Part shown: positions 21,139 to 39,745 of the stretch, piece after piece
Position numbering within the stretch: position 1 is the first letter of the stretch
Layout of the letters: each line of letters opens with the position of its first letter
NCBI GenBank assembly: GCA_024276605.1
Contig: JAJRWX010000017.1
Coordinates: 1 to 53,553 of the forward strand
Source of the DNA: Planctomycetota bacterium
Lineage (GTDB): Bacteria; Planctomycetota; Phycisphaerae; UBA1845
Direction: 5' to 3'
Length of the DNA: 53,553 nt
Program-made: the position numbers and the translations under genes
The notes under the pieces: generated by a model
The model's input: only the letters and a program-made list of their open reading frames with translations
What the model was told of the DNA's origin: nothing
Database searches by the model: none

Positions 21139-23145
21139 ATGGCTAGTACACAGGCAGTGTGGGGGATCGATCTCGGGCGGTGTGCACTCAAGGCAATTAA
21201 GCTACGTCTTAGTGGCGATGACAAGGTTGAAATTGTCGCATGTGATTACCTGGAGCACGATCAGGATCTATCACATGCCGAGGATAAGCGGCACGAGCTG
21301 ATTGCTGCAGCCCTCGAGAAATTTCTCTCTCGCAATGATATCTCCAAAGATGCGATAGCGATATCAGTTCCGGGGCAGCAAACACTCGCCCGTTTTACGA
21401 AATTGCCCCCGGTCGCCCCTAAGCGGATTCCGGATATCGTGCGATACGAGGCAGACCAACAAATTCCTTTTGATATGGATGAAGTGATCTGGGACTACCA
21501 GACGTTCGAGTCTGAGGGGCTGCCGGATTTGGAAGTCGGCATTTTTGCGATGAAACGTGAATTGCTCCGTGAACATTTACTGCATTTTGAGCAGGCATCC
21601 ATCGAACCGATTGCCGTACAAACCGGGCCACTGGGTGTGTATAACGCGGCATATTTTGAGGATTTTTTGAGTGATGAAACGACGATTATGCTCGATGTCG
21701 GCGCAACCAACGCTGATCTTGTCATCGGTACACGACATAGCCTCTGGACGCGTACCATTCAGATTGGTGGTAATCACTTTACGGATGCATTGGTCAAAGC
21801 CTTTAAGCTGTCGTTTGCCAAAGCAGAATCGCTGAAAAGAACCGCTTCCACAAGCAAATACAAACGACAGATTTTCCAGGCCATGAGGCCGGTATTTGCC
21901 GATTTGGTTCAGGAGTTGCAGCGGTCCATCGGTTTTTATTCATCTACACATCGTGAAGCACAAATCGATAAGATTGTCGGTTGTGGCAATGCCTTCAAGC
22001 TTCCAGGACTGGAAAAATATTTGCATCAAAACCTAGACTTGGCTGTTCAGGTATTATCAGCACCTAAAAATGCCCAAGTGTCAACCACGGCTCAGGGCGA
22101 TGTGATCAAAGACCAATTTTTGAGCTTTTCCGTAGCCTATGGCATTGCCTTACAAGCATTGGAGAAGGGTAAGATTCAATGCAATTTGTTGCCTACGGAG
22201 ATTGCCAAGCAACTCGTCTGGCGTAGAAAGAAGCCTGCTTTCGCAGCCGCCGCAGCGTGTCTGATGCTCTCGGGGGCTATGATTTGGTTTCGTCAGTCTA
22301 CCGACATGAGCGCATTGGCCGCAGAGGCGAATGCGGGCAGTGGGTCTATGCAACTGGATCAAGCCTACGATACGGTCGAAAACGGCCCGTCAAGCTCGTT
22401 GTCCAACCGTGCGCAAGCACAGGCGATTCTAGCCGCAGGAAAATCACTGAAGAGCGAGCTGGGACGATTGCGGGGGCAAGGTCAAACTGAACGGGAAGAG
22501 ACAGAAGAACTGGTCAGTTTAATGCGCAATAAGATTGTTGTCCCTAAGATCGTGAAGATCATTCATGATGCTTTGCCGATGCCTAGTGGTGCGCTGGGGC
22601 AGGCTTCAACCGTCGAGCAGGTACAGTCGTTACTTTCCTCTGGGAAATTACCACCGCGTAACGAGCGTCGTCAAGTCGTTGTCGAATCGTTTGACATATT
22701 ATGGGAGGCGGATTTGCACGCCTACGATTGGACGAGCGTCGTCTCCATGCCTGAGCCTATTAATCCGTTCGAAGATGAATTGGCAGGTTTTTGGGTGAAA
22801 GTCACGTGTACTACACCCAACAAAGACGCTGCCGACTTTATTGACAAAGAGTATGTTCGTACGTTGCGGCAACTGGGAAGCCGACCGGGTATGGGATTTT
22901 ATTTTGATCGAATTGCGATTTATCGTGGCGAAAAAGTGAAGATAAAATCCCTAGGGCGATCAGGCCGGAAAAAGTTTTTTGGTGGTGGGCTTGTCAATCA
23001 AGACGAATGGGAGGCCATTGACCCATTAGATCCAGTCACGAACGAATCTCGCAAAGACGATTGGCGATTTGATATTTTCATCGATGTTATTTTGGAAGAC
23101 TACCCAGAGGATTTGTTGGACACGAACGAGAATGAAGGCGATTAA
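21139..23145 (+). CDS. pilM: PilM-like actin-fold ATPase fused to a PilN-like membrane part
   Basis: 668 aa. Residues 1-345 are an actin-like PilM domain: phosphate loop WGIDLGRCALKAIKL at about 8-22, second loop MLDVGATNADLVIG near 180, adenosine-site GCGNAFKLPGLEKYL near 285. A TM segment at about 364-383 (AAAACLMLSGAMIWF) follows, then a coiled, mostly periplasmic region to the end. In type IV pilus systems PilM is cytoplasmic and binds the N-terminus of a separate PilN, so here the two roles appear joined. The order with the next three genes (PilM-like, two anchored proteins, secretin) resembles the Amuc_1101-1098 cluster of Akkermansia, another PVC bacterium. That comparison comes from memory of the gene order, not an alignment. 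Confidence 0.87.
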   Translation: MASTQAVWGIDLGRCALKAIKLRLSGDDKVEIVACDYLEHDQDLSHAEDKRHELIAAALEKFLSRNDISKDAIAISVPGQQTLARFTKLPPVAPKRIPDIVRYEADQQIPFDMDEVIWDYQTFESEGLPDLEVGIFAMKRELLREHLLHFEQASIEPIAVQTGPLGVYNAAYFEDFLSDETTIMLDVGATNADLVIGTRHSLWTRTIQIGGNHFTDALVKAFKLSFAKAESLKRTASTSKYKRQIFQAMRPVFADLVQELQRSIGFYSSTHREAQIDKIVGCGNAFKLPGLEKYLHQNLDLAVQVLSAPKNAQVSTTAQGDVIKDQFLSFSVAYGIALQALEKGKIQCNLLPTEIAKQLVWRRKKPAFAAAAACLMLSGAMIWFRQSTDMSALAAEANAGSGSMQLDQAYDTVENGPSSSLSNRAQAQAILAAGKSLKSELGRLRGQGQTEREETEELVSLMRNKIVVPKIVKIIHDALPMPSGALGQASTVEQVQSLLSSGKLPPRNERRQVVVESFDILWEADLHAYDWTSVVSMPEPINPFEDELAGFWVKVTCTTPNKDAADFIDKEYVRTLRQLGSRPGMGFYFDRIAIYRGEKVKIKSLGRSGRKKFFGGGLVNQDEWEAIDPLDPVTNESRKDDWRFDIFIDVILEDYPEDLLDTNENEGD

Positions 23146-23216
23146 CCTGGGCTAAGTGAAGGCACTGAGAATACGTTTTATTCTGCATGTACCTGCAAAT
23201 TCGGGAGCAGGAAGTT

Positions 23217-24521
23217 ATGGAGTTTATTCGACGACACGCATTTACCATTATCTGTTCCGTTGTCGCCTTAGCCGGCTTAGCCATTGGGGTCACCGGTCTG
23301 CAGGCGATGCCCAAAGTGGCGGATAAAATGCACGAGGCGAAACGCGTCTTTGACGAATTAGGATCGCTGGAAAATGGGGCGGCTAATCGCCAAGTTATCG
23401 GTGCGGAAAAACGCCGGATTGACTCCATAGTTCAAGACCGTAATCGGGTGATACAGCGCTGTCTGACGTTGTATCCATACAAGCCATTAATAGACGGCGT
23501 CTTTCCAAATGGCGATGATAATCGTCGTCGTCAATTCAAATCGACCTATCAGACGGCTATGCAAGCTTTGCATGATTCGATGCGTTCAGGTGCGACGGCG
23601 ATGTCTCAAGACGTTGAGAATATGCGAGATAAAATCGAAGCTGAAAAAGACAGGGCCAAAGAGCAAAACCTAGACCCTGGGGCTGTGCCACTATCTCCAG
23701 TGGAGACCGGCCCGGCAGAAACGCCCGCCGGTTTTTTAACGGTAGCTGGAGCTAAGGAGAACCCTGCGGCCCGCGCTGAGATGGCTACCGCGCAGCAATT
23801 TTACATGTATGCTACCCCTTTTGAAATACGCAAAAATACCAAAGTACGCGCTTTATCCAAAGCTACACCTAGCTTGGATTTTCATCCAGCTATGATGGAT
23901 ACCGGTACCGTTGACGCGCCTTACCCGGATGAATGCTGGGAGGCACAAGTTGGGTATTGGATCCAAAAGGATGTGGTCGAAGCTATCAACGATGTCAACA
24001 TCCAAGCTGCTGCTAAATTGAAGAAAGCGGGTGTTGCTCGATGGGTGGGTACGTTACCGATCAAAGAACTCATTTCCGTGCGTGTGAGTGCTGATTATGT
24101 GCCACCGTTTGGAGAAGGAGAACTAGTTAATGGCGCCCAGCCGGGGGGGCGCCAGGAAGCGTTGCCGCCGATCTCAGCAGAGAATGTGTTTACCCACAAT
24201 GGTCGTTCGGGTACGTTCGAAGTTGTTCAGTTTACCGTCAAGATGGTCATGGATCAGCGGGATATATCCGTATTTGTCAATCGCTTGACGGCGGGACGAT
24301 TCCACACGCTGCTTCGGGTAGCCTATAAACAAGTGCTGCCGAATAAACGTATGGTTGGTAAAATTTATGGGGCAGACCCGGTCGTCAATGTCGTCATGGA
24401 TTTTGAATCGGTCATGTTGGGTGAAATTTTCCGCAAGTGGATGCCCCCGGAAGTGTGTGATCGGTACGAGATCGCGTGTCCGGAACCCGAAGAAGGTACT
24501 GATGAAGAGGGGGACACGTAG
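23217..24521 (+). CDS. Membrane-anchored protein of the pilus-like cluster
   Basis: 434 aa from ATG 23217, chosen for GGAG/AGGAAG just upstream; ATG 23187 is ten codons earlier without such a site. Short cytoplasmic leader, one TM segment (about 9-30), then a coiled-coil-like region with a Pro/Ala-rich patch near 155-185 and a globular C-terminal part (FEVVQFTVKMVMDQRDISVFVNRLTA, about 330-360). It sits where PilO-like proteins sit in pilus operons. Similarity to a named PilO is not visible, so the role is inferred from place and topology. Confidence 0.78.
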   Translation: MEFIRRHAFTIICSVVALAGLAIGVTGLQAMPKVADKMHEAKRVFDELGSLENGAANRQVIGAEKRRIDSIVQDRNRVIQRCLTLYPYKPLIDGVFPNGDDNRRRQFKSTYQTAMQALHDSMRSGATAMSQDVENMRDKIEAEKDRAKEQNLDPGAVPLSPVETGPAETPAGFLTVAGAKENPAARAEMATAQQFYMYATPFEIRKNTKVRALSKATPSLDFHPAMMDTGTVDAPYPDECWEAQVGYWIQKDVVEAINDVNIQAAAKLKKAGVARWVGTLPIKELISVRVSADYVPPFGEGELVNGAQPGGRQEALPPISAENVFTHNGRSGTFEVVQFTVKMVMDQRDISVFVNRLTAGRFHTLLRVAYKQVLPNKRMVGKIYGADPVVNVVMDFESVMLGEIFRKWMPPEVCDRYEIACPEPEEGTDEEGDT

Positions 24522-24632
24522 TGTTGATCCAAGATCAGCCATTATGTGTGCAAGCAGATGTTAATCGGCTGCCTGATTGGTTACCGGCGACATACGTTTT
24601 GAAGCTTGTGATCGGTTACGGAGTTCAGTGTT

Positions 24633-26510
24633 ATGGCTAAACAACTTGTAGGTCCTCTAGAAAGACATCTTGAAAAAGCGGTGGTTGCCTTGGCAGGCCT
24701 GGTGCTTATCGGGGCGATAGGAAGGTATCTGATTACCTCGCCGAATCAAGTCATCATTAATGGGGCGCCGGTTCCCCCGTCTAAAATCGATGAAGAGTTG
24801 GTGACCACGGCACGCGCGGTTCGAGATCGCGTGGTTGGCGTGCGTAGTGATGTTGAGGCTCCAGACCCGGTTTATGATGAATTTGAGTCCCAGATTAATC
24901 CATTTGGTAGGGAAAAGTTGGATGATTCACTCGTCAAAGCGGTGGCTTTTGGTCCGCCCATACCGATTATCGATCCGCCAACAGCTGTTGATGGGGATAA
25001 AGAGCTGGTTAAAGTCGTGGATTTGGATAAACCCACCGTCACCTCCGGTCGCAGTACCATCGTTTTTTATGACGACGACAACCAACCCTACGACGAGGTG
25101 ATTAATTGGACTATCGTCTCGGTTGTTTTCGATCGTGAAAAACAATCAAAACGTCAGGCTTTAGCCTATGGTGGTAGTCGTAAGGAGGTGACGTTTGGTA
25201 CGGTAGAGCTTCAGCGCCGGGCGCAGCGCCCCGGCGGGAGTTGGTCCGATGAAGATTGGGAGATGGTTGAAGCCTGGCCGGCTAAGTCTGCACCTCCACC
25301 TCCCGAATTACAAATTGTTGAGGTGGATGGGCAACTTGAAGTACCCCATAAACAGTATGTGGCTTTATCTGAATACTATCGAGCGTTGAATAAGCCGGAG
25401 ACGCAACTTGATTTGTTAAGGCCGCTTGGATTGGAAGTCTCTAATGGTTCGCCGTGGGTATGGCCGCAGTTATATCAGCACAGTAAAGAATTACAATTAC
25501 AGGATTGGGATGTACTGCACCCGGGGGATAAGCCCGACCAAATACTGGATGATCGTTATGGGCTGACGGATGATACGTTAACGCCGGCTATGCCTCAACG
25601 GGGAAAAGAACTAACCTTCGATGAGCAGGTTGATGCAGCATTCAAGCTCCTTGCCGAGGCCCGACAATCCAAAGATTTGAACCAAGTATTGACGGCTTAC
25701 AATCTTTGTTTTGGGGTGAAAAATGATATACGTTCCAGCGGTAAGGCAAAGGGTTTGGCGCAGCGTTGTATGGATACCGCCAATTTGCTGCAAGACGATA
25801 TAGAGCGTGATAAAAGGCGGAAACCCAAAAAACGGCCGAAAGCGAACTCTGATGATGACGAAGAGCTACAACGAGAACGGTACCCTCGCCAGCAAATTTG
25901 GGTGATTGATGCTAAATCAGACAGCATACCCTCCGGTCAGACTTTTCAATATCGCATGCGCGTGAACATTTACAATCGTTTAGCGGCCCAGCCGGCTAAG
26001 TATGCGAACCCTGATGATGCGAAAGTAGTATTTATTGCGAGCGAATGGTCCCCGCCTACGGATCCCGTAGCTTTTGAAGCGGTATCTCATATGTTTGCGA
26101 CAAGCTTTGATGAGCGTCAGGAAAAAATCAGCATTGAGGTATTTCAGTGGTTTGATGGCGAATGGGTCAAAGGTAGATCGCGCTTTGGTGTGGGTGATCA
26201 CATGGCTTTTCCGGCCCGGGCAACGACAAGATCGTTAGAAGATCCGACTAAACCTGTTAGGGCGTTGGTTGACTTTGAAACTGATGCGACAGTCGTCGAC
26301 ATAGATTTTGACCGGGCTTATTGCGAGAAAAAGAGGGGACGCACAAGAGACGGCGTGAAACTTGGTGTCGTTGGTAAAGCATGTTCTGTCATATACATTG
26401 ACAACACCGGTGAATTGCATGAGCAATTCGTGCCGTTTGACAAAAAGCATCCGTTCAAAGCCGAGTTAGGCGATCGAATGTGGAAACCGGAACGAGACGT
26501 GAGTCGTTGA
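24633..26510 (+). CDS. Membrane-anchored protein of the pilus-like cluster, unknown
   Basis: 625 aa. One TM segment near the N-terminus (about 15-33, VVALAGLVLIGAIGRYL), the rest soluble and presumably periplasmic. Alternating acidic, proline-containing and beta-rich stretches, with a Lys/Arg-rich patch RRKPKKRPK at about 392-400 and a beta-rich C-terminal part. An ACGGAG about 10 bases before ATG marks the start. Located between the PilO-like gene and the secretin; such proteins commonly link the inner-membrane ring to the secretin, but no known domain is recognised here. Confidence 0.75.
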   Translation: MAKQLVGPLERHLEKAVVALAGLVLIGAIGRYLITSPNQVIINGAPVPPSKIDEELVTTARAVRDRVVGVRSDVEAPDPVYDEFESQINPFGREKLDDSLVKAVAFGPPIPIIDPPTAVDGDKELVKVVDLDKPTVTSGRSTIVFYDDDNQPYDEVINWTIVSVVFDREKQSKRQALAYGGSRKEVTFGTVELQRRAQRPGGSWSDEDWEMVEAWPAKSAPPPPELQIVEVDGQLEVPHKQYVALSEYYRALNKPETQLDLLRPLGLEVSNGSPWVWPQLYQHSKELQLQDWDVLHPGDKPDQILDDRYGLTDDTLTPAMPQRGKELTFDEQVDAAFKLLAEARQSKDLNQVLTAYNLCFGVKNDIRSSGKAKGLAQRCMDTANLLQDDIERDKRRKPKKRPKANSDDDEELQRERYPRQQIWVIDAKSDSIPSGQTFQYRMRVNIYNRLAAQPAKYANPDDAKVVFIASEWSPPTDPVAFEAVSHMFATSFDERQEKISIEVFQWFDGEWVKGRSRFGVGDHMAFPARATTRSLEDPTKPVRALVDFETDATVVDIDFDRAYCEKKRGRTRDGVKLGVVGKACSVIYIDNTGELHEQFVPFDKKHPFKAELGDRMWKPERDVSR

Positions 26511-26882
26511 GGTACGATTAGGTTGTTGTATCCACGTTTTTCATAGCTCAAACGCGAGGATTGGAACGCGGATGCTGATGAGGATACGATTGTGCAGCGA
26601 TTCATGATGTTGTGTTGTCTGGTAATTTGGGTGGCATGAAGGCGGGCTGTTATGACGGTATTTACACCCTCCTGTTTGGCGATCGATACGGGTGTGATGG
26701 CGAGACTTGCGGTTTGTCCCGTGTTTCCTAGAATCCATCCATGCGTTGCTTGGGTGGCTGCATGGGGTCATAGTATCCATGTGCGTGTGTCATCCCGCAT
26801 CAGCTTGTTGGGGGCGAAGTGCGGCGAGTATTAGGGGGTATCGTTTGACGGGTGCTATCGTGCCCACAGGGAGGATGTTGTT
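26511..26882. other. Intergenic leader of the secretin gene
   Basis: 372 bases with no supported gene; short frames here have no protein-like sequence. The last 15 bases carry the strong ribosome site AGGGAGG (26870-26876) that selects the TTG start of the secretin. A separate promoter for the secretin could lie here. Nothing else seen. Confidence 0.45.
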
Positions 26883-29800
26883 TTGGCAATATTGAGAACT
26901 ACGGCGATTGCGGTCATGGTGATTGCTGTCTTCCTGTCGGCTGCACCGTCGGTGTTGGCAGGCGATGGGTCCGTACAACTGCAACACGCCATCAAGTTAT
27001 TCGATCAGGGTGATTATGCGGCTGCGCAGGAAGTGCTTGTGGCTATCGATCGGGCGAAGCTTGGGCCAAAAGAGCAGGCAAGCCGTGATGATTATCTTCA
27101 GCGACTTCAAGAAGCGACGTTGATGCAGGAAAAATCGCTACGCGACCTGGAAGATGCAGAGGCGGCTATTGGCGCAGGTGAAAAGGCTCAGGCGCATGCG
27201 TCGTTGCAGGCTGTGCTTAACAACGAATACACATCTCAAGGTGTACGTGAGGCTGCCGATCGATATATGCGGGAGCTTCATCAAGATACTCATCAAGAGG
27301 GGCATCGATCATCGCCACCTTCGGATGAGGTGGACCGCGTGCAAGTGTTAGTTGGTGAAGCAGACGAACTGGTTCGCACAGGACGCTATGAAGAAGCTAG
27401 GCGTCTTTATGAGCAGGTTATCTCCATCGTACCTGGTCATCCCGAAGCGGTGGATGGTTTGCGTATGGTGACGGAGCATCAGCGTAACCTTGTCGGTACG
27501 CGCGCCGATACGCTTGCGGAGCGTCTGCGTCGTCAAGATGCGATTAACTGGCAACGCAGTGTGGCTCAATTCCGTGATGCCGAGTCTCAAATTCGGCAAT
27601 TTGTCCGACAGAAGCAATTTAATCAAGCCAATCAAATGCTGGTGCGCGCGGGTCAAATTGTTGAAGCTGGGAAGCAATTTGCCGACCCTGCAAGTCAGTA
27701 TGATGCTTTGAAGTCGGACTTTGTATCACTATCGGATTTAGTGCGTGACGAGGAGCGTCGGTACAATGAAGAGGTCGTGGCCAATACCCGTCGTGAGATT
27801 GAGCGGCAACGACATGACCGTCTTATGCAGGTCGAAGACAATCGCTCTCGCCAGGTCGAGTCGTTGATGGAGCAGGCGCTACAGCATCGCAAAGATGGTG
27901 ACTTGGACGCTGCAGTGAATGTTCTCATGCAGGTTACGGTTATTGACCCTCAATATAAACCTGCTCGATGGTTAATGGATACGTTAGACGATCAACGACA
28001 ATATCAACAGTCTAGGAAGACGCGTGATATATACTATAGCAAGATGCGCGGCGCGCTGGAGGATGTTGAAAAGGCGAAAATACCGTGGTATGAGGAAATT
28101 GAATATCCTGACGATTGGCTTGAACGATTAGCCATGCCGACCCGTACACGCCCCGGCCAGTCCCGTATGGACAGTTTATTGCTTGGTGCGTTGGACCGAA
28201 AAGTACCGGCGGATTTTGATCGTGTACCTTTCGGTGAGGTGATGGAACGATTGGTAGATGCGAATGATATCAATATTCATGTGAACTGGCATGATTTACA
28301 ACTGGCTGGTGTGGACCGCGAGGCGACGATCGATTTACAGCTGCCTCGTGAAATTACACTTAAAAAGGTGCTCACTGAGGTGTTGGAGCAGGCCGGGGGA
28401 GGCAAAGTCGATCTGGGTTATGAAGTCTCTGATGGCATTATATCCGTAGCCACACGCGAGCGGCTAGATCGCAATGTGTTCATGCGTGTTTACGACATTG
28501 CAGATTTGTTGATGGAAATCCCCAACTTTACGAACGCGCCTATGGTGGACCTACGCTATGCTACGGCCCAGCCTAAGCCCATAAATCCGGATGCTCAGCC
28601 GTGGGCGGTGGGTGACGACGACGATGACGAAGAGGAGTTTGATCCCGAGCGTAATAGCCGGGTTCAAAAAATGATTCAACTTATTCAAGACACTATATCC
28701 CCCGACAGTTGGCGTCAAAAAGGTGGCACGGGAGGATCAATTCGTGAAATCAACGGCCAATTGGTCGTTACGCAGAATGCCGCTGCGCAGCGACAGATTC
28801 GTGGCTTGTTGGATCGCCTGCGTCAAGAGCGGGCCATTCAGGTAGCGATAGAAGCATTGTTTATTACGGTGTCCAGCCATTATCTTGAAGAGTTGGGGAT
28901 GGATCTCGACATTGTGTTAAATTCGGGTAATGCCGGATTTGATTTCATCAATTCCGGTGGCGGTATAGCTACGGATCCTACTCTTGGCAATCGCCTGCTG
29001 TTGCCACGCACATTTTCTCGACTTGGTTTCACGCCGAACGTACCTCCTTTGGGGACGGTGTTAGGCACGCCAACGACGGCGGCCAATCAGCCGTTTTCAC
29101 AGGCTTTTTTGGTTCCCCAGGCTGCAGGCGGCTCAGGGAGTCAATTAACACCTGTGCCGGTTACTTCAGGCTTATTGGGTATTACCGATCCTTCGTTGTT
29201 GCCGAGCGATGTGCCTGGTAGCTTCGGTGGGCAGTCGATTGGGCCCGCACTGAGCATTTTTGGGAGCTTTCTCGATAACATTCAAGTTGATTTCCTTGTG
29301 CGGGCTACCCAAGCAGATTCACGATCTACGGTGTTGACAGCGCCGCGTTTGGTTGTATTTAACGGCGGTTCCGCTTGGGTGGCGGTCACCATACAGCAAA
29401 ATTACATCTCTCGATTGCAGCCCGTCGTGAACCAGGGAGCCGTCGCACAGGCTCCCATTACCGGTACAATCGATGCCGGTGCGAGTTTGTTTGTTAGAGC
29501 GACGGTCACCGCTGACAAACGATATGTGATGATGTTACTTGCCCCTGGTGTCACGCGTTTGCTTGGTCTGCAAGCCTTCGAGTTTAGCGGTGGTACCGGT
29601 GCGGGCCAAGCGTTTCTTCAGTTACCCACGTTATCCGCACAGCGGATGCAAACCGTCGTGTCCGTTCCAGATGGCGGAACGTTGTTGATTGGTGGGCAAA
29701 AGCTTGCGAGTGAAACTGAAGTAGAAGCCGGTGTACCGATTCTGTCTAAAATTCCCGTACTCAAACGGATTTATTCCGCTCGTTCGATGGTTAAGGATGA

Positions 29801-29888
29801 GCAGACTTTGCTCATTCTGATCAAACCAAAAATCCTTATCCAAAGTGAGCAAGAACAACTCGCGTTCCCCACGTTTTCGCAGCGATAA
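26883..29888 (+). CDS. Secretin (outer-membrane pore) with long helical N-terminal region
   Basis: 1001 aa from TTG, set by the upstream AGGGAGG. A signal peptide covers residues 1-27 (cut after VLAG or nearby). Residues 28-440 are mostly helical with repeat-like pairs (FDQGDYAAAQEVL; GRYEEARRLYEQVISIVPGHPEA) suggesting tetratricopeptide units. A small N-domain follows at about 445-510. An acidic run of about 13 Asp/Glu-rich residues lies near 578-590. The secretin domain occupies about 640-990, ending with the family core PDGGTLLIGGQK and VPILSKIPVLKRIYSAR. Secretins make the gated ring through the outer membrane in pilus, type II and type III systems. Its neighbours suggest a pilus-like or type II-like apparatus. 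Confidence 0.92.
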   Translation: MAILRTTAIAVMVIAVFLSAAPSVLAGDGSVQLQHAIKLFDQGDYAAAQEVLVAIDRAKLGPKEQASRDDYLQRLQEATLMQEKSLRDLEDAEAAIGAGEKAQAHASLQAVLNNEYTSQGVREAADRYMRELHQDTHQEGHRSSPPSDEVDRVQVLVGEADELVRTGRYEEARRLYEQVISIVPGHPEAVDGLRMVTEHQRNLVGTRADTLAERLRRQDAINWQRSVAQFRDAESQIRQFVRQKQFNQANQMLVRAGQIVEAGKQFADPASQYDALKSDFVSLSDLVRDEERRYNEEVVANTRREIERQRHDRLMQVEDNRSRQVESLMEQALQHRKDGDLDAAVNVLMQVTVIDPQYKPARWLMDTLDDQRQYQQSRKTRDIYYSKMRGALEDVEKAKIPWYEEIEYPDDWLERLAMPTRTRPGQSRMDSLLLGALDRKVPADFDRVPFGEVMERLVDANDINIHVNWHDLQLAGVDREATIDLQLPREITLKKVLTEVLEQAGGGKVDLGYEVSDGIISVATRERLDRNVFMRVYDIADLLMEIPNFTNAPMVDLRYATAQPKPINPDAQPWAVGDDDDDEEEFDPERNSRVQKMIQLIQDTISPDSWRQKGGTGGSIREINGQLVVTQNAAAQRQIRGLLDRLRQERAIQVAIEALFITVSSHYLEELGMDLDIVLNSGNAGFDFINSGGGIATDPTLGNRLLLPRTFSRLGFTPNVPPLGTVLGTPTTAANQPFSQAFLVPQAAGGSGSQLTPVPVTSGLLGITDPSLLPSDVPGSFGGQSIGPALSIFGSFLDNIQVDFLVRATQADSRSTVLTAPRLVVFNGGSAWVAVTIQQNYISRLQPVVNQGAVAQAPITGTIDAGASLFVRATVTADKRYVMMLLAPGVTRLLGLQAFEFSGGTGAGQAFLQLPTLSAQRMQTVVSVPDGGTLLIGGQKLASETEVEAGVPILSKIPVLKRIYSARSMVKDEQTLLILIKPKILIQSEQEQLAFPTFSQR

Positions 29889-32142: not shown

Positions 32143-32301
32143 TGGATCACTGCGCCGACTGTGTAGTATTCTTACTTTGTAACCTGGCAGCGTCATCACT
32201 AATTCATCAGGATAATTCGAATCTCAGGCCGCCATATAAAGTTAGCGCATACTCTACCCTGGTGACGTTGACCCTGCGTCATCAACATTCATAATGACCA
32301 C

Positions 32302-32952
32302 ATGCCTTCACCGTCTAATACACGTGACAATCCGAGCGACGATTTCCTGATAACTGCGATGTTAGCCGGTGACACGGCAGCCCTAAGGAAACTGATGCAG
32401 CGGTATGACCGACTTGTGCGCTATCATATATACCGCATCTCAAAGAGTCGCTGTCTTGCTGATCCCCATTGGCTTGAGGCTATCGCTTCGGAAACGTGGT
32501 CAGGGTTTGTGGAGAGGTGTCGGACTACATCGGGTGAGGCGATCGATTCCGTCCCGGCGTTGCTGTCGCGGATCACCAGGAATCGGAGCATCTCTGCGTT
32601 GCGTCGCGTCATCGGCACAGAGCAAACGCAATCCCTGGACGCCGAAACTGGCACGATCGATCAAAACCTATCCGCCGACGAGGATCAACAACCTAGTGTT
32701 GTGGCTGAGCGTTTGGAACTTTTGGAATTCTTGCGAGAAAGTTTATCGGACTTAGAAGAAGCGGATCGAAGTATCTGTGATGAACTGCCGCTCATCATGG
32801 AACGCCGTTGGAAAGAGGCTGGTAAGCGGCTGGGCATGAGCGAATCGACGCTTCGGTCGCGTTGGCAGGTCATTTTAGGCAAACTTCAACGGACCTTAGC
32901 CAAAAAAACCGGAGAAAATATCGCGCCGAAGGCCTCATGGAGCGACTTATAG
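32302..32952 (+). CDS. ECF-type RNA polymerase sigma factor
   Basis: 216 aa. Region 2 lies in residues about 20-95 (LRKLMQRYDRLVRYHIYRI then PALLSRITRNRSISALRR); an acidic linker with Gln/Asp follows, and region 4 is at about 145-195 (WKEAGKRLGMSESTLRSRWQVILGKL, the helix-turn-helix that reads the -35). It directs polymerase to a special promoter set. It is followed after 48 bases by a gene for a small membrane protein that fits an anti-sigma role. No -35/-10 pair specific to it was recognised upstream. Confidence 0.88.
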   Translation: MPSPSNTRDNPSDDFLITAMLAGDTAALRKLMQRYDRLVRYHIYRISKSRCLADPHWLEAIASETWSGFVERCRTTSGEAIDSVPALLSRITRNRSISALRRVIGTEQTQSLDAETGTIDQNLSADEDQQPSVVAERLELLEFLRESLSDLEEADRSICDELPLIMERRWKEAGKRLGMSESTLRSRWQVILGKLQRTLAKKTGENIAPKASWSDL

Positions 32953-33000
32953 ACTGTGAATGGACGTGTAGAGTGTGGATTTCTACCGGAATAAGGTGAT

Positions 33001-33459
33001 ATGACGCAACCTGATCACAAGCTTGACCCTATCGAGCAGACGCTAGCGGAGCTTGCCGAAGCTGAGCAAGCCGGCGTGTTTCGAGCGACGCGTTTGGATG
33101 AATGTGCGCTTCTAATGGGTGGTCATGTTGCTACGCGACCAGCTTGGTTGAAGTGGGGCAAGCATTGGGCAGCACTTGCAGCCATGCTGGGTCTTACCAT
33201 AATCGTATGGTCAGCCATGTTCAACATGCAGCTCAATCAAATCGACTCGGCTACGAATCGGTCGGTTGTGTTAACTGATCCCGAGACAGGTATACACAAC
33301 GTCGGTTGCGATGGCGACTTTCTTCGTTGTTTCAATGGTCCTACTATATTGGCCGCCGCAACCTGTAAAACATTTGACTTCGACCTCGATGGTGACATCG
33401 ACATGCTCGATATGCAAACCTACCAACAGAACTGCCAGGGCTTGCGACGCAATCGTTAG
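33001..33459 (+). CDS. Small single-TM protein with external dockerin-like calcium loop (possible anti-sigma)
   Basis: 152 aa. AAGG lies 4 bases before TGAT and the ATG. Residues 1-58 are cytoplasmic and helical (EQTLAELAEAEQAGVF), one TM covers about 61-82 (WAALAAMLGLTIIVWSAMF), and about 70 residues are outside. Those end with FDFDLDGDIDMLDMQTYQQNC, an EF-hand/dockerin type I calcium loop (Asp at loop positions 1, 3 and 5, then DMLD). Cysteines at the end may pair. Position straight after an ECF sigma factor makes an anti-sigma role likely, though the cytoplasmic part lacks the zinc-binding HxxxCxxC signature. Dockerin loops bind Ca2+ and cohesins in other systems; here the partner is unknown. 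Confidence 0.78.
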   Translation: MTQPDHKLDPIEQTLAELAEAEQAGVFRATRLDECALLMGGHVATRPAWLKWGKHWAALAAMLGLTIIVWSAMFNMQLNQIDSATNRSVVLTDPETGIHNVGCDGDFLRCFNGPTILAAATCKTFDFDLDGDIDMLDMQTYQQNCQGLRRNR

Positions 33460-33714: not shown

Positions 33715-34134
33715 CTACTGCCCCGTGAATCCAGCTTGTAATTGTGCGTAATCTTTCATTGTGATGCTACCATCGGCGTCAACGTCAAAGCATGGGCACG
33801 GACTCGCGTCGATACCCCCATCCGGCCCCATGAAACAGATGGTAAACAATTGATGATCGAAGCGATTGACCAGCCCATCATCGTTGCAATCAGTTGGCGG
33901 CAACTCGGACCAAAAGCCGCCCGACAGCGTGAAAATACCACCTTGCATGACGCCTGCATCTGGCTGACCGATTGTTCCTGACAGTTCGAATTCGCCACCA
34001 GTGCTGCGCAACACACCGCCGCCATCGATACTGGAACGGGTGATTTGGTAGTCTGACTGACCGAGTGTTGTCGTAGCTACCTGGCTGAGAACACCGACCA
34101 ATATGGCCGTACAGATTTTGGTTCGTCCGATCAT
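33715..34134 (-). CDS. Exported dockerin-type protein
   Basis: 139 aa. Signal peptide about 1-25 (VGVLSQVATTTLGQ). Then a beta-rich segment typical of planctomycete exported proteins (SSIDGGGVLRSTGGEFELSG), and two calcium-binding loops: DCNDDGLVNRFDHQLF and DVDADGSITMKDYAQL, forming a dockerin type I-like module at the C-terminus. It has no enzyme domain, so it may serve as an adaptor or anchor in a cell-surface or secreted assembly. Convergent with the sigma/anti-sigma pair; the nearest stop is 255 bases away. Confidence 0.82.
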   Translation of the reverse strand: MIGRTKICTAILVGVLSQVATTTLGQSDYQITRSSIDGGGVLRSTGGEFELSGTIGQPDAGVMQGGIFTLSGGFWSELPPTDCNDDGLVNRFDHQLFTICFMGPDGGIDASPCPCFDVDADGSITMKDYAQLQAGFTGQ

Positions 34135-34203: not shown

Positions 34204-34326
34204 TTAGTGTTGGTGGGTTCGCGAAGTTGCCAACCCATGCTCTGTGCAGTGTTTTCGGTGGTTTCCAGGAGCCATAGCCATGCTGTCCTCATGTTCAATC
34301 CTTTCTGGTAGCTTATTTTCTTCCAT
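34204..34326 (-). CDS. Possible 40-codon frame overlapping the end of the fibre-like gene
   Basis: ATG 34326 overlaps the final codons of the upstream gene by 14 bases, with AAGGAAAC about 7 bases before it, so it could be translated by coupling. The 40-residue product (MEENKLPERIEHEDS..., His-rich at the end) is not recognised. It may be chance. Confidence 0.22.
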   Translation of the reverse strand: MEENKLPERIEHEDSMAMAPGNHRKHCTEHGLATSRTHQH

Positions 34327-36946
34327 CGTCGTTTCCTTGATAAGTAGTTCGTGCTGCCTGGCCATGAGATAATTCCTTGCTCGTGGGGTTACGCCAACTC
34401 CAGCCCATCGCAAGCATCCCGACCAGGAATATAGCTGCAGTTATGGGGGTACTCATGCCCGGCGTGCTAGCCTGTTGTGGGTGAGTTATCTTGCGGATGC
34501 TTTCTTTTAGCGTAGAGACCTCAGCCCGCAACGCAGCGATCTGCTCCTGATGGATTTTGAATTGGTTGCCCGCTGTGACCGCGCTTGCACGGCTAAAATT
34601 TTCAAAAAACACGCTGATTTTCTTATGCTTGCGGCCATCGATGGCCTCGGTGACGTTGGACCAATTCACGGTCTCACCGACGCGGGCTACAACGTATCCG
34701 GTCGGAAATTGCTCCGGGTCGTCGAGCATGGCATGACCGCGAACATCTGACGAAATGAGGTAGTCCCCCGGTTTGAGGTTCCGTCCTGTATTGACCACCC
34801 ACATATCCCCGTTCCCGACGGCCATGACCAAACGAGGGTTCTTGAGCGACATCGGTCTTGTTGGTTCAAGCAGCCCCAAGTGTGCGCCAAGGCACTTGGA
34901 GTCATTTGCACTGGACGACGTGGTCATTCCGTAGATCGTCTCGGCATTCAAATCGCCGTGTAGGTTATGGTTCTCTCCGGTCATGGTCATCAACATCCCA
35001 CGCGCCGGTTGCTCATCGGACCATCCTAAGTGTGAGCCGGTAAAACTGTTGTAGCTCACCGTATTACCTGAAACGGAGATTGAACCCACGCCGGAGTGAT
35101 CCTGTTTCAGCGAGACGAGGGTTCCGTCATTGCCGAGCCGATTGAAAATCGCCGGAGTTGTTGATGAACTCCAGACTTCGAGCCGCGCCGATGGGAATCT
35201 GGTCCCAATTCCGACGTTGCCATTATGAAGCAGTCGCATCAGGCTCGTGTTGCTTGTCGTTTGAATGTCAAGCCCGTTTTGGCCTCCAACGCCGTTGCCC
35301 CCGACTCGAATTCGTGCGACGTCATCCAGCCAGGACAAGCTGACCTCGGCCAACTGGTTGTTCGGATTGGTGGCAGTCACACGTCCACCCGTTGCGCCGC
35401 TGCTGCGAATCTGACCGGCCACGTCGAGTTGCGCTCCCGGAGTATTTGTCCCGATGCCGACCTTACCTGAGAAGTACCCGTCACCAACGAAAAACCCGCC
35501 CCAGTTCGTCGTAGCGCCAAAGGCGCGTCCTTCGACAGCGATGTTCGTGTCACCCGTTCCTGCGGCGATGGCATTGACTCCGATCGTCCACTGCGAGGAC
35601 GATTCGGCCACGGCTCGCAAACCATAAACATTTGCGAACTCTGATGTCGCACTGGCACAAACTCCCGTTGCAGCCAGAAGAGGACCGCGCACGATCGGAC
35701 CGCCTTGCACGTTGGCACCGAAAATCGCGCACCCCGCTGTAGTTCTAGTAACTTGAAGGGTTGAGAGCGCATTAATCGCTGTCGTCCCGATGCCGACCTT
35801 ACCCTGCACGATGAGACCGTCCGATGGCGCAGCGTCTACTCCGGCGTACGTCGCCCCGATGGCTACACCGCCCTCTACGTCAAGCTTGTTGACCGGCGTC
35901 GGCGTCCCTATTCCGACTTTGCCGCTAGCTTTTACTGCAAAGGCCGTTGTATCTGGCTCACCTGGGGTGGGTTGCAAGACACTTGGTACGCGAACATATA
36001 AGCCGTCATCGCCGTCGTTGGCCCTCAGGTCGACCACTAGATGTGAACTTAGCGGCCCGATCATCTGCATTCCAAAATTCGACCCGGGGATATCCGCAAG
36101 CCCTCCGCCGTACCGCGCAATCTCTAAGCTCTGGTTGGCGTCGAGACCGATGCGTAAACTGGTTCCCGCCCCGTTCAAAATGTCTAGTGTTTTCGTTGGT
36201 TGCGTGGTTCCGATACCGACGTTGCCGCTCTTGTCGATCGTCATCCAATCCTCTCTTGTACTGTCCGCTTGCCAACCACCAAACCGCAGGGAACTAGCGA
36301 AGGGAAAATCCGAGCCTGGAATTCCGAAAAACAGGTTTTCGAATTCCATGAACATTCCCCACCGTCCGAATCCGGTGTGGCGTCCTGTGGTCATTGGATC
36401 CCACTGACGAACGATCATCGGCGCATCGGCTTCATCTAGCCGGATCGAGTTTTGAATTTGAAGCAGGCCACGGACATCCAACTTCTGCGAAGGATCCTTT
36501 GTTCCAACGCCGACGTTACCCATGTCGTCAACGTCAATGCCGCGCGTGTGAATGGCATACGGCGCGGCGGACAATGGCTGACGTGGAGTCAGCGGAATGA
36601 AGGCTGGGGAGCAAGGCGAAGTGCAACAAACATCAATTTGTAGCCATCGGGCATCACCGTCAAACGCCGTCGCTCCGAAGTCCAATTCAACCTGAAACAG
36701 GCCGTTACGAACTTCAGCCGTCACCTGAATCGTGCTTGCGATTTGGATGCCCGGGTCCGGGTCGTTGTCGCCCGTCCACAGACCAAACTCGAAGTCGCAG
36801 GTGTCAGTGACCGGGACGCCGTTTTGTTTGAGTTGACCCTGATATGTAAATGCCGTTGTGTCTAATGTCCCGCCGATAGCAACGGAAGCCAAGACGGCAG
36901 GCATCACCGCTCCCAAGATTCCGTAACGATTCACAAATTGATGCAT
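34313..36946 (-). CDS. Tail-fibre-like repetitive surface protein with C-terminal anchor
   Basis: 877 aa from ATG 36946 (GGGAGGG 5 bases before). A signal peptide (about 1-26) is followed by a beta-domain (FTYQGQLKQNGVPV to ARWLQIDVC, about 30-115). Six repeats of the motif G(N/K)VGIGT follow near residues 142, 240, 340, 380, 493 and 575, as in phage tail-fibre and bacterial adhesin stalks. The C-terminal part (about 660-780; GDMWVVNTGRNLKPGDYLIS) resembles the self-cleaving intramolecular chaperone domain of some tail spikes, by impression only. Then come a coiled coil (about 795-818) and a TM segment (about 830-848). GC is higher than in neighbours (34-37 of 60 bases in three sampled lines; 26 of 60 at 43141). 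No phage genes lie nearby. Confidence 0.8.
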   Translation of the reverse strand: MHQFVNRYGILGAVMPAVLASVAIGGTLDTTAFTYQGQLKQNGVPVTDTCDFEFGLWTGDNDPDPGIQIASTIQVTAEVRNGLFQVELDFGATAFDGDARWLQIDVCCTSPCSPAFIPLTPRQPLSAAPYAIHTRGIDVDDMGNVGVGTKDPSQKLDVRGLLQIQNSIRLDEADAPMIVRQWDPMTTGRHTGFGRWGMFMEFENLFFGIPGSDFPFASSLRFGGWQADSTREDWMTIDKSGNVGIGTTQPTKTLDILNGAGTSLRIGLDANQSLEIARYGGGLADIPGSNFGMQMIGPLSSHLVVDLRANDGDDGLYVRVPSVLQPTPGEPDTTAFAVKASGKVGIGTPTPVNKLDVEGGVAIGATYAGVDAAPSDGLIVQGKVGIGTTAINALSTLQVTRTTAGCAIFGANVQGGPIVRGPLLAATGVCASATSEFANVYGLRAVAESSSQWTIGVNAIAAGTGDTNIAVEGRAFGATTNWGGFFVGDGYFSGKVGIGTNTPGAQLDVAGQIRSSGATGGRVTATNPNNQLAEVSLSWLDDVARIRVGGNGVGGQNGLDIQTTSNTSLMRLLHNGNVGIGTRFPSARLEVWSSSTTPAIFNRLGNDGTLVSLKQDHSGVGSISVSGNTVSYNSFTGSHLGWSDEQPARGMLMTMTGENHNLHGDLNAETIYGMTTSSSANDSKCLGAHLGLLEPTRPMSLKNPRLVMAVGNGDMWVVNTGRNLKPGDYLISSDVRGHAMLDDPEQFPTGYVVARVGETVNWSNVTEAIDGRKHKKISVFFENFSRASAVTAGNQFKIHQEQIAALRAEVSTLKESIRKITHPQQASTPGMSTPITAAIFLVGMLAMGWSWRNPTSKELSHGQAARTTYQGNDDGRK

Positions 36947-37224
36947 CTCAACCCTCCCGATTTTGCACACATGATAAACGCTAAGTAACGGGCGCTCTCG
37001 ACTGTCTAGTATCCTCCGAAAGGCATCGGCATCAGCTCGCGGCCCGAACCGTCCAGCGTGTGATTATAGCAGCCTAAATACGCGGATGACATGAATCGAC
37101 TGTGTTTTTATTTCCGATAATAACATCCTTCTTCGCATCATGCCCAAAAAGATCGAGCCGGTTATTGCCGAGCACACGATCCATCAGTTATCACTGCCCC
37201 AACCATAAGAAGTATGTTAAGTCT
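36947..37224. other. Intergenic sequence upstream of the fibre-like gene
   Basis: No supported gene. It should hold the promoter and leader of the leftward fibre-like gene; no boxes can be named. Two inverted-repeat structures occupy the sequence to the right. Confidence 0.35.
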
Positions 37225-37723: not shown

Positions 37724-39745
37724 CTACGCCAAATCTGCTACTGTTGGTGGGCTGGGGCGATATGGAGATGTTGGTTGCTGGGGAGGCGCGGTAGGGGCCT
37801 TGGGCGTTATCTTTTGTTTTCGACCGACGATGAGAACGAACAGTAGTAGGAATAATGCACCCGCACCCAGACCGTAATACCAGGGTTGTTTGTAGATGTT
37901 GCACATCACATCGCTGATCCCCAAAGCTGCGATAGCAGTAACCACGGCGTAGGGAATTTGTGTCCATACATGCTCTTCGTGGCGACATCCCGAAGCGATT
38001 GATGATAATACCGTGGTGTCGGAGATGGGTGAGCAATGGTCGCCGAAGACCGCCCCAGCTAGGACGCTTCCGACGGCGGCGTAAAAGTAAACCAACGCTT
38101 GATCCGTCGAGAGGTTTGGAGTTTGCTGAATCAAGCCGGTGGCAATAACGACCGTCGTAGGACAAAGAATGCCCATGGTTCCCCAAGAAGTTCCGGTAGA
38201 GAAAGAAATAATAGCCGCGGTCAGAAAGACGGCGAGCGATAGCCATTCGATGGGAAACGCCATGTTCCGCAGGTGACTTTCCATCACTTTACCTAAAGCC
38301 AAGTCCTGGAGCACCTGCGACAAAGCCCATGCCAATACGAGGATGACAATGGCTGGGAACATACGGGCCATGCCGTCCAGGCCGGCATCAGCGGCGTCTC
38401 GGACGCTACACGAACCGGCGACGATCGTTAACATCAAAGCAAAAAACGCTGAAAGAATCGCACCGTAAAAAATTGAAAGATACGAATCGGTGTGGTTGAT
38501 AACCTCGAATATTTTTTGCCAGGCGGTCATGTCGCTGGTGATCACCTCTTTCCCACCACTGTTGTATCCCGTAACCCATAGTACGGCTATCGTTGAGATG
38601 ACCAATACGAGGATGGGAAACAAACCGAGCCACCATCGTGGCACTATAGTTTCAGAAGGCGCTGATACATGTGCATCGTATGGTAAATCCTGCGTATCGT
38701 CTCCGGCCCGTTGTTGGGCGCGTTTCATCGGTCCAAAATCTCGACCTAGCATGGCAACCAGAAAGACCATGAAGATCGCGAGTATGGGGTAGAAACGATA
38801 TTGCAGGCTACCATAAAAGGCTTGCATGCCATTCATGGCCTGGCCGTCTGAGATGAGAAAGTCCGGCGTACCTTGTGCGGCTACGGTGTTTAAGCCGTCG
38901 CCGATGAAACTGATTTCAGCGCCGACCCAAGTGCCAATTAGCGCTAAGGACGCTACCGGGGCAGCAGTGGAGTCGACGATGTAGGCGAGTTTGGCCCGGG
39001 AAATTTTGAGTCGATCGAAAACGCCGCGCATGGTGGGGCCGACGATCATGGTGTTGGCGTAATCGTCGAAGAACACAATCAACCCGGCTAGCCATGCCGT
39101 GAGTGCGCCACGACGAGGCGAGTTGGTGTCACCGGCCACAACGCGCACCATCCCGGCGGTGCCGCCGTTACGACCGAGTACCCCGACGGTGAAACCGATG
39201 ACCAAAGTGAAGATGATAATTTTAAGATGACCGTGCCCATCCGATGGATCGAGGATAGCGCCTACGGCATATTGTTCACAGGCCATACGAAAACCGGCGA
39301 CGATGGAATTTTGCCCGACGTATGGGCTGGTCGTTGGCAAGCAAGGGATTAATAAGTACGCACCGGCGAGTAGTCCTACGACTAATGCGGGGACGACCTG
39401 GCGGGTGAAAATAGCGAGGATGATAGCCATTAACGCAGGCGCGAGCACCCATAGGCCATAGAGTGATTGTGGATTTTTCGGTTGACGCACAGTGGATTGA
39501 TTGGGTGTGGTCGGTGTTGTGTCCGTGGTTGTTGGTGTTGAATCTTTTACGCTGGGATTGTCTACCTGAGTATTCACAGGGGCGATTTGCGTGTTGGTCG
39601 ACTGATCGATTACGGCTGGGTTGGTGCTGTTGGGCAGTTGAGCGAAGATGCTTGCAGGGCTGAATGTGAGATACATACTGGCGAGTACGATGCCCAGGGC
39701 GAACGATGCACGACCCGTCGTTTTTCCAGTTGTTCGTGTTTGCAC
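37724..39745 (-). CDS. nhaC: Na+/H+ antiporter, NhaC family, with exported N-terminal extension
   Basis: 673 aa from GTG 39745, with AAGGAG 5 bases before. A signal-peptide-like start (about 14-36, SFALGIVLASMYLTFSPASIFA) and a Thr/Pro/Asn-rich linker (about 37-90; TPTTTDTTPTTPN) precede a polytopic core of about 12 TM segments from about 95 to 655. Core motifs FFDDYANTMIVGPTMRG, SLALIGTWVGAEIS and GDHCSPISDTTVLSS are those of NhaC-type antiporters, which exchange external H+ for Na+. NhaC proteins are usually 450-520 aa and lack such an extension. The last 30 residues are Pro/Ser-rich. Confidence 0.9.
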   Translation of the reverse strand: MQTRTTGKTTGRASFALGIVLASMYLTFSPASIFAQLPNSTNPAVIDQSTNTQIAPVNTQVDNPSVKDSTPTTTDTTPTTPNQSTVRQPKNPQSLYGLWVLAPALMAIILAIFTRQVVPALVVGLLAGAYLLIPCLPTTSPYVGQNSIVAGFRMACEQYAVGAILDPSDGHGHLKIIIFTLVIGFTVGVLGRNGGTAGMVRVVAGDTNSPRRGALTAWLAGLIVFFDDYANTMIVGPTMRGVFDRLKISRAKLAYIVDSTAAPVASLALIGTWVGAEISFIGDGLNTVAAQGTPDFLISDGQAMNGMQAFYGSLQYRFYPILAIFMVFLVAMLGRDFGPMKRAQQRAGDDTQDLPYDAHVSAPSETIVPRWWLGLFPILVLVISTIAVLWVTGYNSGGKEVITSDMTAWQKIFEVINHTDSYLSIFYGAILSAFFALMLTIVAGSCSVRDAADAGLDGMARMFPAIVILVLAWALSQVLQDLALGKVMESHLRNMAFPIEWLSLAVFLTAAIISFSTGTSWGTMGILCPTTVVIATGLIQQTPNLSTDQALVYFYAAVGSVLAGAVFGDHCSPISDTTVLSSIASGCRHEEHVWTQIPYAVVTAIAALGISDVMCNIYKQPWYYGLGAGALFLLLFVLIVGRKQKITPKAPTAPPQQPTSPYRPSPPTVADLA

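Follow-up and report, generated by a model that had tools for sequence, protein, structure and literature searches.

A planctomycete ECF sigma factor gene paired with a membrane protein that carries a dockerin-type calcium loop

The window, by which we mean the whole 53,553-nucleotide stretch of DNA that was analysed, carries on its + strand a gene assigned to an ECF sigma factor and, after a gap of 48 bp on the same strand, a gene for a small membrane protein that ends in a calcium loop of the dockerin type. We tentatively read the two as a sigma factor and its membrane-bound anti-sigma factor, the exported half-dockerin tail of which, filled with calcium, would receive a signal by protein contact; our confidence in this reading as a whole falls a little short of even. 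A predicted sigma switch with a dockerin-type tail is present in three sets of genomes: the GTDB family of the window, a sister family (f8) and a third set that is scattered over the class.

The upstream open reading frame (216 residues; 32302..32952, +) is matched by the NCBIfam model TIGR02937 (sigma70-ECF) with 54.1 bits against a cut-off of 42.9, and the Pfam models Sigma70_r2 and Sigma70_ECF score marginally below their cut-offs. Searched against solved structures, the profile of the sigma family found 13 chains, every one an RNA polymerase sigma factor and the majority named as ECF (best E 8.3e-6). The predicted structure is helical, with a mean pLDDT of 85.5. On the basis of the TIGR02937 score, the 13 sigma chains matched by the profile and the helical model, the product is assigned as an ECF sigma factor.

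The partner (152 residues; 33001..33459, +), presumed to be the anti-sigma factor, begins with roughly 50 residues ahead of a membrane helix; a variable linker follows, and the calcium loop lies in the C-terminal part. The N-terminal end (residues 1–48; 33001..33144, +), presumed to be cytoplasmic and sigma-binding, has predicted helices at residues 10–23 and 34–39. The protein has a single strongly hydrophobic stretch, in which the best 19-residue segment starts at residue 56 with a mean hydropathy of 1.92; this maximum marks the core of the membrane helix (residues 56–74; 33166..33222, +), and the structure model has a helix at residues 49–85. Lys and Arg residues in the 20 residues flanking the helix, summed over 30 homologues, number 101 before the helix and 43 after it, with the N-terminal side richer in 23 of the 30, a bias that fits a partner with its N-terminus inside the cell. 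The single hydrophobic stretch and this charge bias, together with the conserved loop ligands described below, agree with the sequence-only reading, in which the protein had been given an anti-sigma layout with a calcium loop on the presumed outer side. No Pfam or NCBIfam anti-sigma model matches the partner, and none is among the families listed for the 30 members; the class I (zinc-type) Hx3Cx2C motif is not visible in the partner sequence. The structure model of the partner is weak (mean pLDDT of 75, pTM of 0.33). Its sole Foldseek match was a cohesin–dockerin entry at a non-significant E of 7.7, and a repeat look gave nothing, so that the predicted structure was rejected as proof of the tail fold.

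The tail (residues 103–146; 33307..33438, +) contains Cys110 and Cys122, which are present in all 30 homologues, and the sequence FDFDLDGDIDMLD (residues 125–137), within which lies the calcium loop DFDLDGDIDMLD (residues 126–137; 33376..33411, +). The loop follows the EF-hand pattern, with an acidic or amide residue at loop positions 1, 3, 5, 9 and 12 in 29 of the 30 homologues and glycine at position 6 in all 30. Asp or Asn occupies each of the five positions that would provide side-chain calcium ligands in 29 of them, the exception (L052) having lost one ligand. The tail is recognized by no Pfam or NCBIfam model; Pfam Dockerin_1 matches none of the 30 family members at an E of 1 or better, and the profile of the partner family, searched against solved structures, found only EF-hand proteins at an E of 0.16 or worse.

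Similar tails occur elsewhere in the genome of the window. A comparison of the partner with this genome gave 25 other places, all of which match the tail only, and the nearest of these (C110:40465) is 50% identical over 38 residues. The 25 relatives were selected for their likeness to the partner; by eye, the C..GP pattern is present in 19 of them, and in 24 the second loop is preceded by a stretch resembling a first loop (the exception, L021, is a short open reading frame), and under a strict pattern two loops were found in 13. In the 30 partner rows, inspected by eye, only the second loop is present and a complete first loop is absent from all. Because the genomic relatives mostly show two loops and the 30 partners one, the tail is best described as resembling half a dockerin, in which the second loop and the Cys pair are kept and a complete first loop is missing. 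The absence of Dockerin_1 matches and of a complete first loop led us to reject the partner as a whole dockerin; of the dockerin end that had been proposed earlier, the dockerin-type second loop stands and the complete dockerin does not. Twenty dockerins of the window's family that were chosen by Pfam score are of another type than the partner tail, the C..GP pattern being found in none of the 20.

Conservation was assessed in the 51 genomes, from 32 genera, of the GTDB family (by protein search) and in the 114 genomes of the order (by profile search). Full-length homologues of the partner were found in 48 of the 51 family genomes, the other three (G004, G007 and G010) being without one among the matches listed. 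Thirty of the 48 loci were read, and in 29 of these a homologous sigma gene lies directly upstream of the partner gene (28 by phmmer, with that of L055 partial, and one by eye, L040, where the sigma gene is a fragment at a contig end). At the remaining locus, L049, no sigma gene precedes the partner gene, which is still open, and transposase-like sequence was seen by eye at positions 1–899. The pairing of an ECF sigma factor with a membrane protein, from which the sequence-only reading had started, is thus borne out both by the two open reading frames in the window and by the related loci. The window's own genome has 34 sigma-like matches, of which 30 were read as loci and 25 have a downstream open reading frame; among these 25, a calcium-loop partner follows at the window's locus only.

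Among three genomes of the same genus, the ratio of non-synonymous to synonymous change is 0.09–0.16 for the whole partner, 0.13–0.19 for the N-terminal end, 0.19–0.89 for the linker and 0.11–0.15 for the tail. The strongest constraint of the protein is on the loop, with values of 0.02–0.09, which are drawn from 12 codons only and of which two of the three are pN/pS, with synonymous change saturated. The occurrence of the partner in 48 of 51 genomes, the ligands kept in 29 of 30 homologues and the low non-synonymous change in the loop confirm, at the level of sequence, that the calcium loop is more than a chance occurrence. Covariation between sigma factor and partner was calculated from 37 pairs, a set that omits L040, L049, L055 and L103 together with the near-identical L056, L057, L097 and L098. 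The N-terminal end holds 13 of the 20 top pairs compared with 6.8 expected; residues 37 or 38 are involved in 11 of the 15 listed pairs, which probably only separate the two families.

The sigma gene is preceded by a −35-like element, TTGACC (32268..32273, +), and a −10-like element, CATAAT (32290..32295, +), the latter ending 6 nt 5' of the ATG, and the elements and their spacing are shared with relatives. The sigma alignment (A2) has 27 rows, L055 being left out as partial, L040 because of a contig end and L049 for want of a sigma gene. In 19 of these 27 family sigma genes TTGACC-like and ATAAT-like elements lie 16–18 bp apart, with TTGACC exact in 16 of the 19 and the second element ending 6 or 7 nt before the ATG (for L039 and L057 the ATG was assigned by eye, the script having picked a GTG that lies nearer). 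Since the −10-like element ends so close to the start codon, the placement predicts a leaderless sigma mRNA that starts at the ATG. No match to the promoter element was found at the other eight of the 27 genes, nor at any of 15 sigma genes of f8. Across 186 kb of family loci the strict form of the promoter has six occurrences, always at the sigma gene, and it is found in none of 50 mononucleotide shuffles of the window. Each of the three same-genus genomes has one exact site for the promoter with ATG, at the sigma gene; allowing one mismatch adds 1, 2 and 2 sites compared with 0, 1 and 0 in the reversed control, and the exact promoter without the ATG has 4, 4 and 2 sites compared with 0, 1 and 1 in the control. 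By eye, no gene common to the extra sites was seen in the three genomes. With few extra sites beyond the reversed control and no shared gene behind them, the promoter was rejected as a marker of the regulon.

Several neighbouring genes were noted in the window. Convergent with the pair lies the gene for a short exported protein (33715–34134, −) that Pfam Dockerin_1 matches with 24.9 bits against a cut-off of 22.9, followed in coordinate order by the gene for an 885-residue protein (34313–36970, −) that has no Pfam match at an E of 0.001. Upstream of the pair, PilM-like and secretin genes (21139–29888) suggest a pilus or type II secretion operon. A gene for an Na+/H+ antiporter (37724–39745, −) is found near the pair in six of ten family regions and a KpsF-like gene in four of the ten, some of these regions being cut by contig ends; no hint of function was drawn from these neighbours.

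The layout is also found outside the window's family. A search of the order's 63 remaining genomes with the sigma profile gave matches, behind 30 of which the genes were read. In f8, 15 of the 16 best-match sigma loci are followed after short gaps by the gene for a small membrane protein that has a single calcium loop close to the C-terminus; in the exception, L102 (G097), the partner lies 75 bp behind a second sigma match of the same genome. A seventeenth f8 genome, G103, has no sigma match at an E of 1e-10. The remaining 14 loci, from families other than f8, have different neighbours or none that could be named. Three sigma genes of other families (L094, L106 and L117) are followed by membrane proteins that, by eye, share a different, mutually similar C-terminal domain. 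The partners of the window's family and of f8 are homologous (hhalign probability of 98.3, E of 2.3e-14 over 127 columns, with the loops aligned), and in the f8 tail the C..GP part is missing and the terminal helix is a different one (alignment A3 is without L103). When the f8 partner profile was searched against 397 class genomes, full-length matches were found in f8 only (15 genomes).

The third set was collected with a profile built from four weak matches in other families (L153–L156), which matches 52 of 298 class genomes at an E of 1e-4, many of them weakly or partially. Thirty loci including the four seeds were read, and a sigma gene lies upstream in 28 (25 by profile, at an E of up to 4e-4, and three by eye), with gaps between sigma gene and partner gene of −56 to 545 bp. 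In L153 and L154 the dockerin-tailed membrane protein is preceded not by a sigma gene but by another gene, the product of which we take to be a DUF4349-like lipoprotein. Of the 30 loci, 28 are aligned (A5, without L153 and L156), and 26 of these 28 have a Pfam dockerin match at an E of 0.1 or better; the profile of the set matches solved dockerins with a best E of 3.1e-6. One relative (L151/L156) has, by eye, an N-terminal end that looks zinc-type, joined to a single loop. A distant relationship is suggested between the N-terminal regions of the third set and those of the window's family (probability of 94.8 over 58 columns), and f8 aligns with the third set at the loop only. The survey of ECF neighbours in Planctomycetota that had been suggested from the sequence accordingly shows this arrangement in numerous genomes of the class, in the window's family, in f8 and in the third set.

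Dockerin matches are present in all 31 class genomes chosen for a search for dockerins and cohesins (23 in the window's own genome and 29–58 in the f8 genomes), compared with cohesin matches in 11: seven of eight genomes from the window's family, two of seven from f8 (one below the cut-off), G092 and G161. The seven window-family genomes have two to six cohesin matches each, the window's own genome having three, two of them above the Pfam cut-off. Five of the seven f8 genomes have no cohesin match despite their dockerins, and all seven retain the tailed partner, which argues against a cohesin as the general signal. Among the 12 carriers of the third set within the 31 genomes (G088, G092, G098, G100, G120, G133, G161, G207, G264, G289, G295 and G329), a cohesin match was found in two. 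A cohesin is therefore a possible partner of the tail in the window's family and would not be the rule for all sets, unless the cohesins there escape the Pfam model. In one relative (G020:C346:17688–19134) a cohesin match and two dockerin matches adjoin.

The tails were also scored against dockerins. The f8 tail scores a median of 15.9 bits against dockerins of its own lineage and 7.9 bits against those of the window's family (20 dockerins each), whereas the tail of the window's family shows no preference among Pfam-selected dockerins, with medians of 2.5 bits for its own lineage and 2.8 bits for the other. The pooled shift towards the own lineage (p of 0.002) is carried by the f8 tail, and the preference of that tail, which supports a protein contact as the signal weakly, could reflect descent.

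In the reading that we favour, the short N-terminal end of the partner would tether the sigma factor to the membrane, while the signal would be received by the exported C-terminal half-dockerin. The signal would most likely be protein contact, a handler of dockerin-tagged exported proteins engaging or releasing the tail; the candidate handler is a cohesin in the window's family and another receptor or sorting component elsewhere. The change would then cross the membrane, probably through proteolysis of the anti-sigma factor, and the sigma factor would be freed, with calcium playing a structural role. Two points favour protein contact: the tails are more like dockerins than like bare EF-hands, and the f8 tail scores higher against dockerins of its own lineage. 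The reading is helped by the constraint on the tail, loop, N-terminal end and membrane helix alike, with the linker less constrained. It is weakened by the lack of Dockerin_1 matches among the 30 members, the absence both of an own-lineage dockerin preference in the window's tail and of C..GP in the 20 dockerins, the f8 genomes without cohesins and the weak structure model; a half-dockerin might also be unable to bind a cohesin. A more far-reaching version, which we consider doubtful, is that a class of planctomycete anti-sigma factors wears the cell's own dockerin tag and reports the load of the outer dockerin-handling machinery, the window's lineage having trimmed the tag to a half-dockerin that can be engaged and does not fully assemble.

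Alternatively, the tail may be a calcium sensor, folding or unfolding as Ca2+ binds or leaves and so releasing the sigma factor without the help of another protein. Within the tail, the five ligand positions are conserved best, one calcium loop is the outer-end feature common to the two homologous families, and in Caulobacter SigV is linked to a calcium-binding protein of the periplasm (PMC13171946, in the text available). We nevertheless regard such a sensor as unlikely, as the third set has whole dockerins in a dockerin layout, beyond a bare loop, and one family member, L052, has lost a ligand. Dockerin-type loops usually bind Ca2+ tightly, and in calcium-rich water such a site would stay filled. 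Much the same degree of doubt attaches to the proposal that loop and Cys pair form a stable outer cap, the signal being misfolding, reduction or protease access as in envelope-stress systems: Cys110 and Cys122, kept in 30 of 30 homologues, are as expected for a disulphide outside the cytoplasm, but the sister family keeps the loop and not the C..GP..C arrangement. Less probable still, in our judgement, is that the partner simply shares an operon with the sigma gene, as a membrane-bound exported protein might, and is not an anti-sigma factor. The partner without an upstream sigma gene in L049, the whole-dockerin relatives behind another gene in L153 and L154, the lack of a clear covariation signal and the lack of a matching anti-sigma model would all be accommodated by it. 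Against it stand the conservation of the pairing in both families and, with a different sigma group, in the third set, a constraint on the N-terminal end as strong as that on the tail, and the apparent relatedness of the N-terminal regions in the window's family and the third set (see above).

With dockerins in all 31 class genomes and cohesin matches in 11, the role of many such dockerins is puzzling, and a sigma switch with a dockerin tail would offer a handle on it, through the targets of the sigma factor and through whatever touches the tail. In freshwater Planctomycetes, cohesin and dockerin modules (the 'planctosome') have been described outside cellulose degradation and proposed to serve peptidase assembly; the planctomycetes studied here likewise have dockerins and cohesins, and the sections of that paper available to us draw no link to anti-sigma factors (PMC6461901). 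The open-licence literature, in the portions available, yielded no description of a dockerin-bearing anti-sigma factor of planctomycetes. The type I dockerins of cellulosomes have a loop of the same kind, and the third set matches both Pfam Dockerin_1 and solved dockerins; the tail of the window's family differs in having one loop only and is not recognized by Pfam.

Three classes of anti-sigma domain have been reviewed (PMC8103513, in part). In the class II system CnrH/CnrY of Cupriavidus metallidurans, a pair of helices is able to hold an ECF sigma factor according to the text available (PMC7406223), and the predicted two-helix N-terminal end of the window's partner, ahead of one membrane helix, would likewise suffice. 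The partner profile gave no sequence match to CnrY. To our knowledge, the outer end of CnrY carries no dockerin. In Caulobacter vibrioides, the CaBP–SigV system connects an ECF sigma factor with an EF-hand protein on the outer side of the inner membrane, with the link across the membrane not identified in the sections available; CaBP is a separate soluble protein with three EF-hands, whereas the loop in the window sits on the membrane partner itself (PMC13171946). A likeness in logic, which the sequence-only reading had drawn to cellulosome regulation in Clostridium, is with SigI/RsgI of Clostridium thermocellum and its relatives, where a membrane anti-sigma factor likewise bears an outer module from the cellulosome world. 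The analogy fits as a way of working, with no homology seen; the sigma factor in the window is of the ECF type, and the RsgI N-terminal domain (RsgI_N) is absent from Pfam scans of the partner and 29 homologues. As far as the available text goes, RsgI proteins bear carbohydrate-binding and other outer modules (PMC3413522, PMC12484212), namely CBM3, CBM42, CBM35, PA14, GH and peptidase modules and not dockerins (PMC3413522). If the half-dockerin tail of the window's partner is a sensor, the range of modules known from anti-sigma factors would gain a new member.
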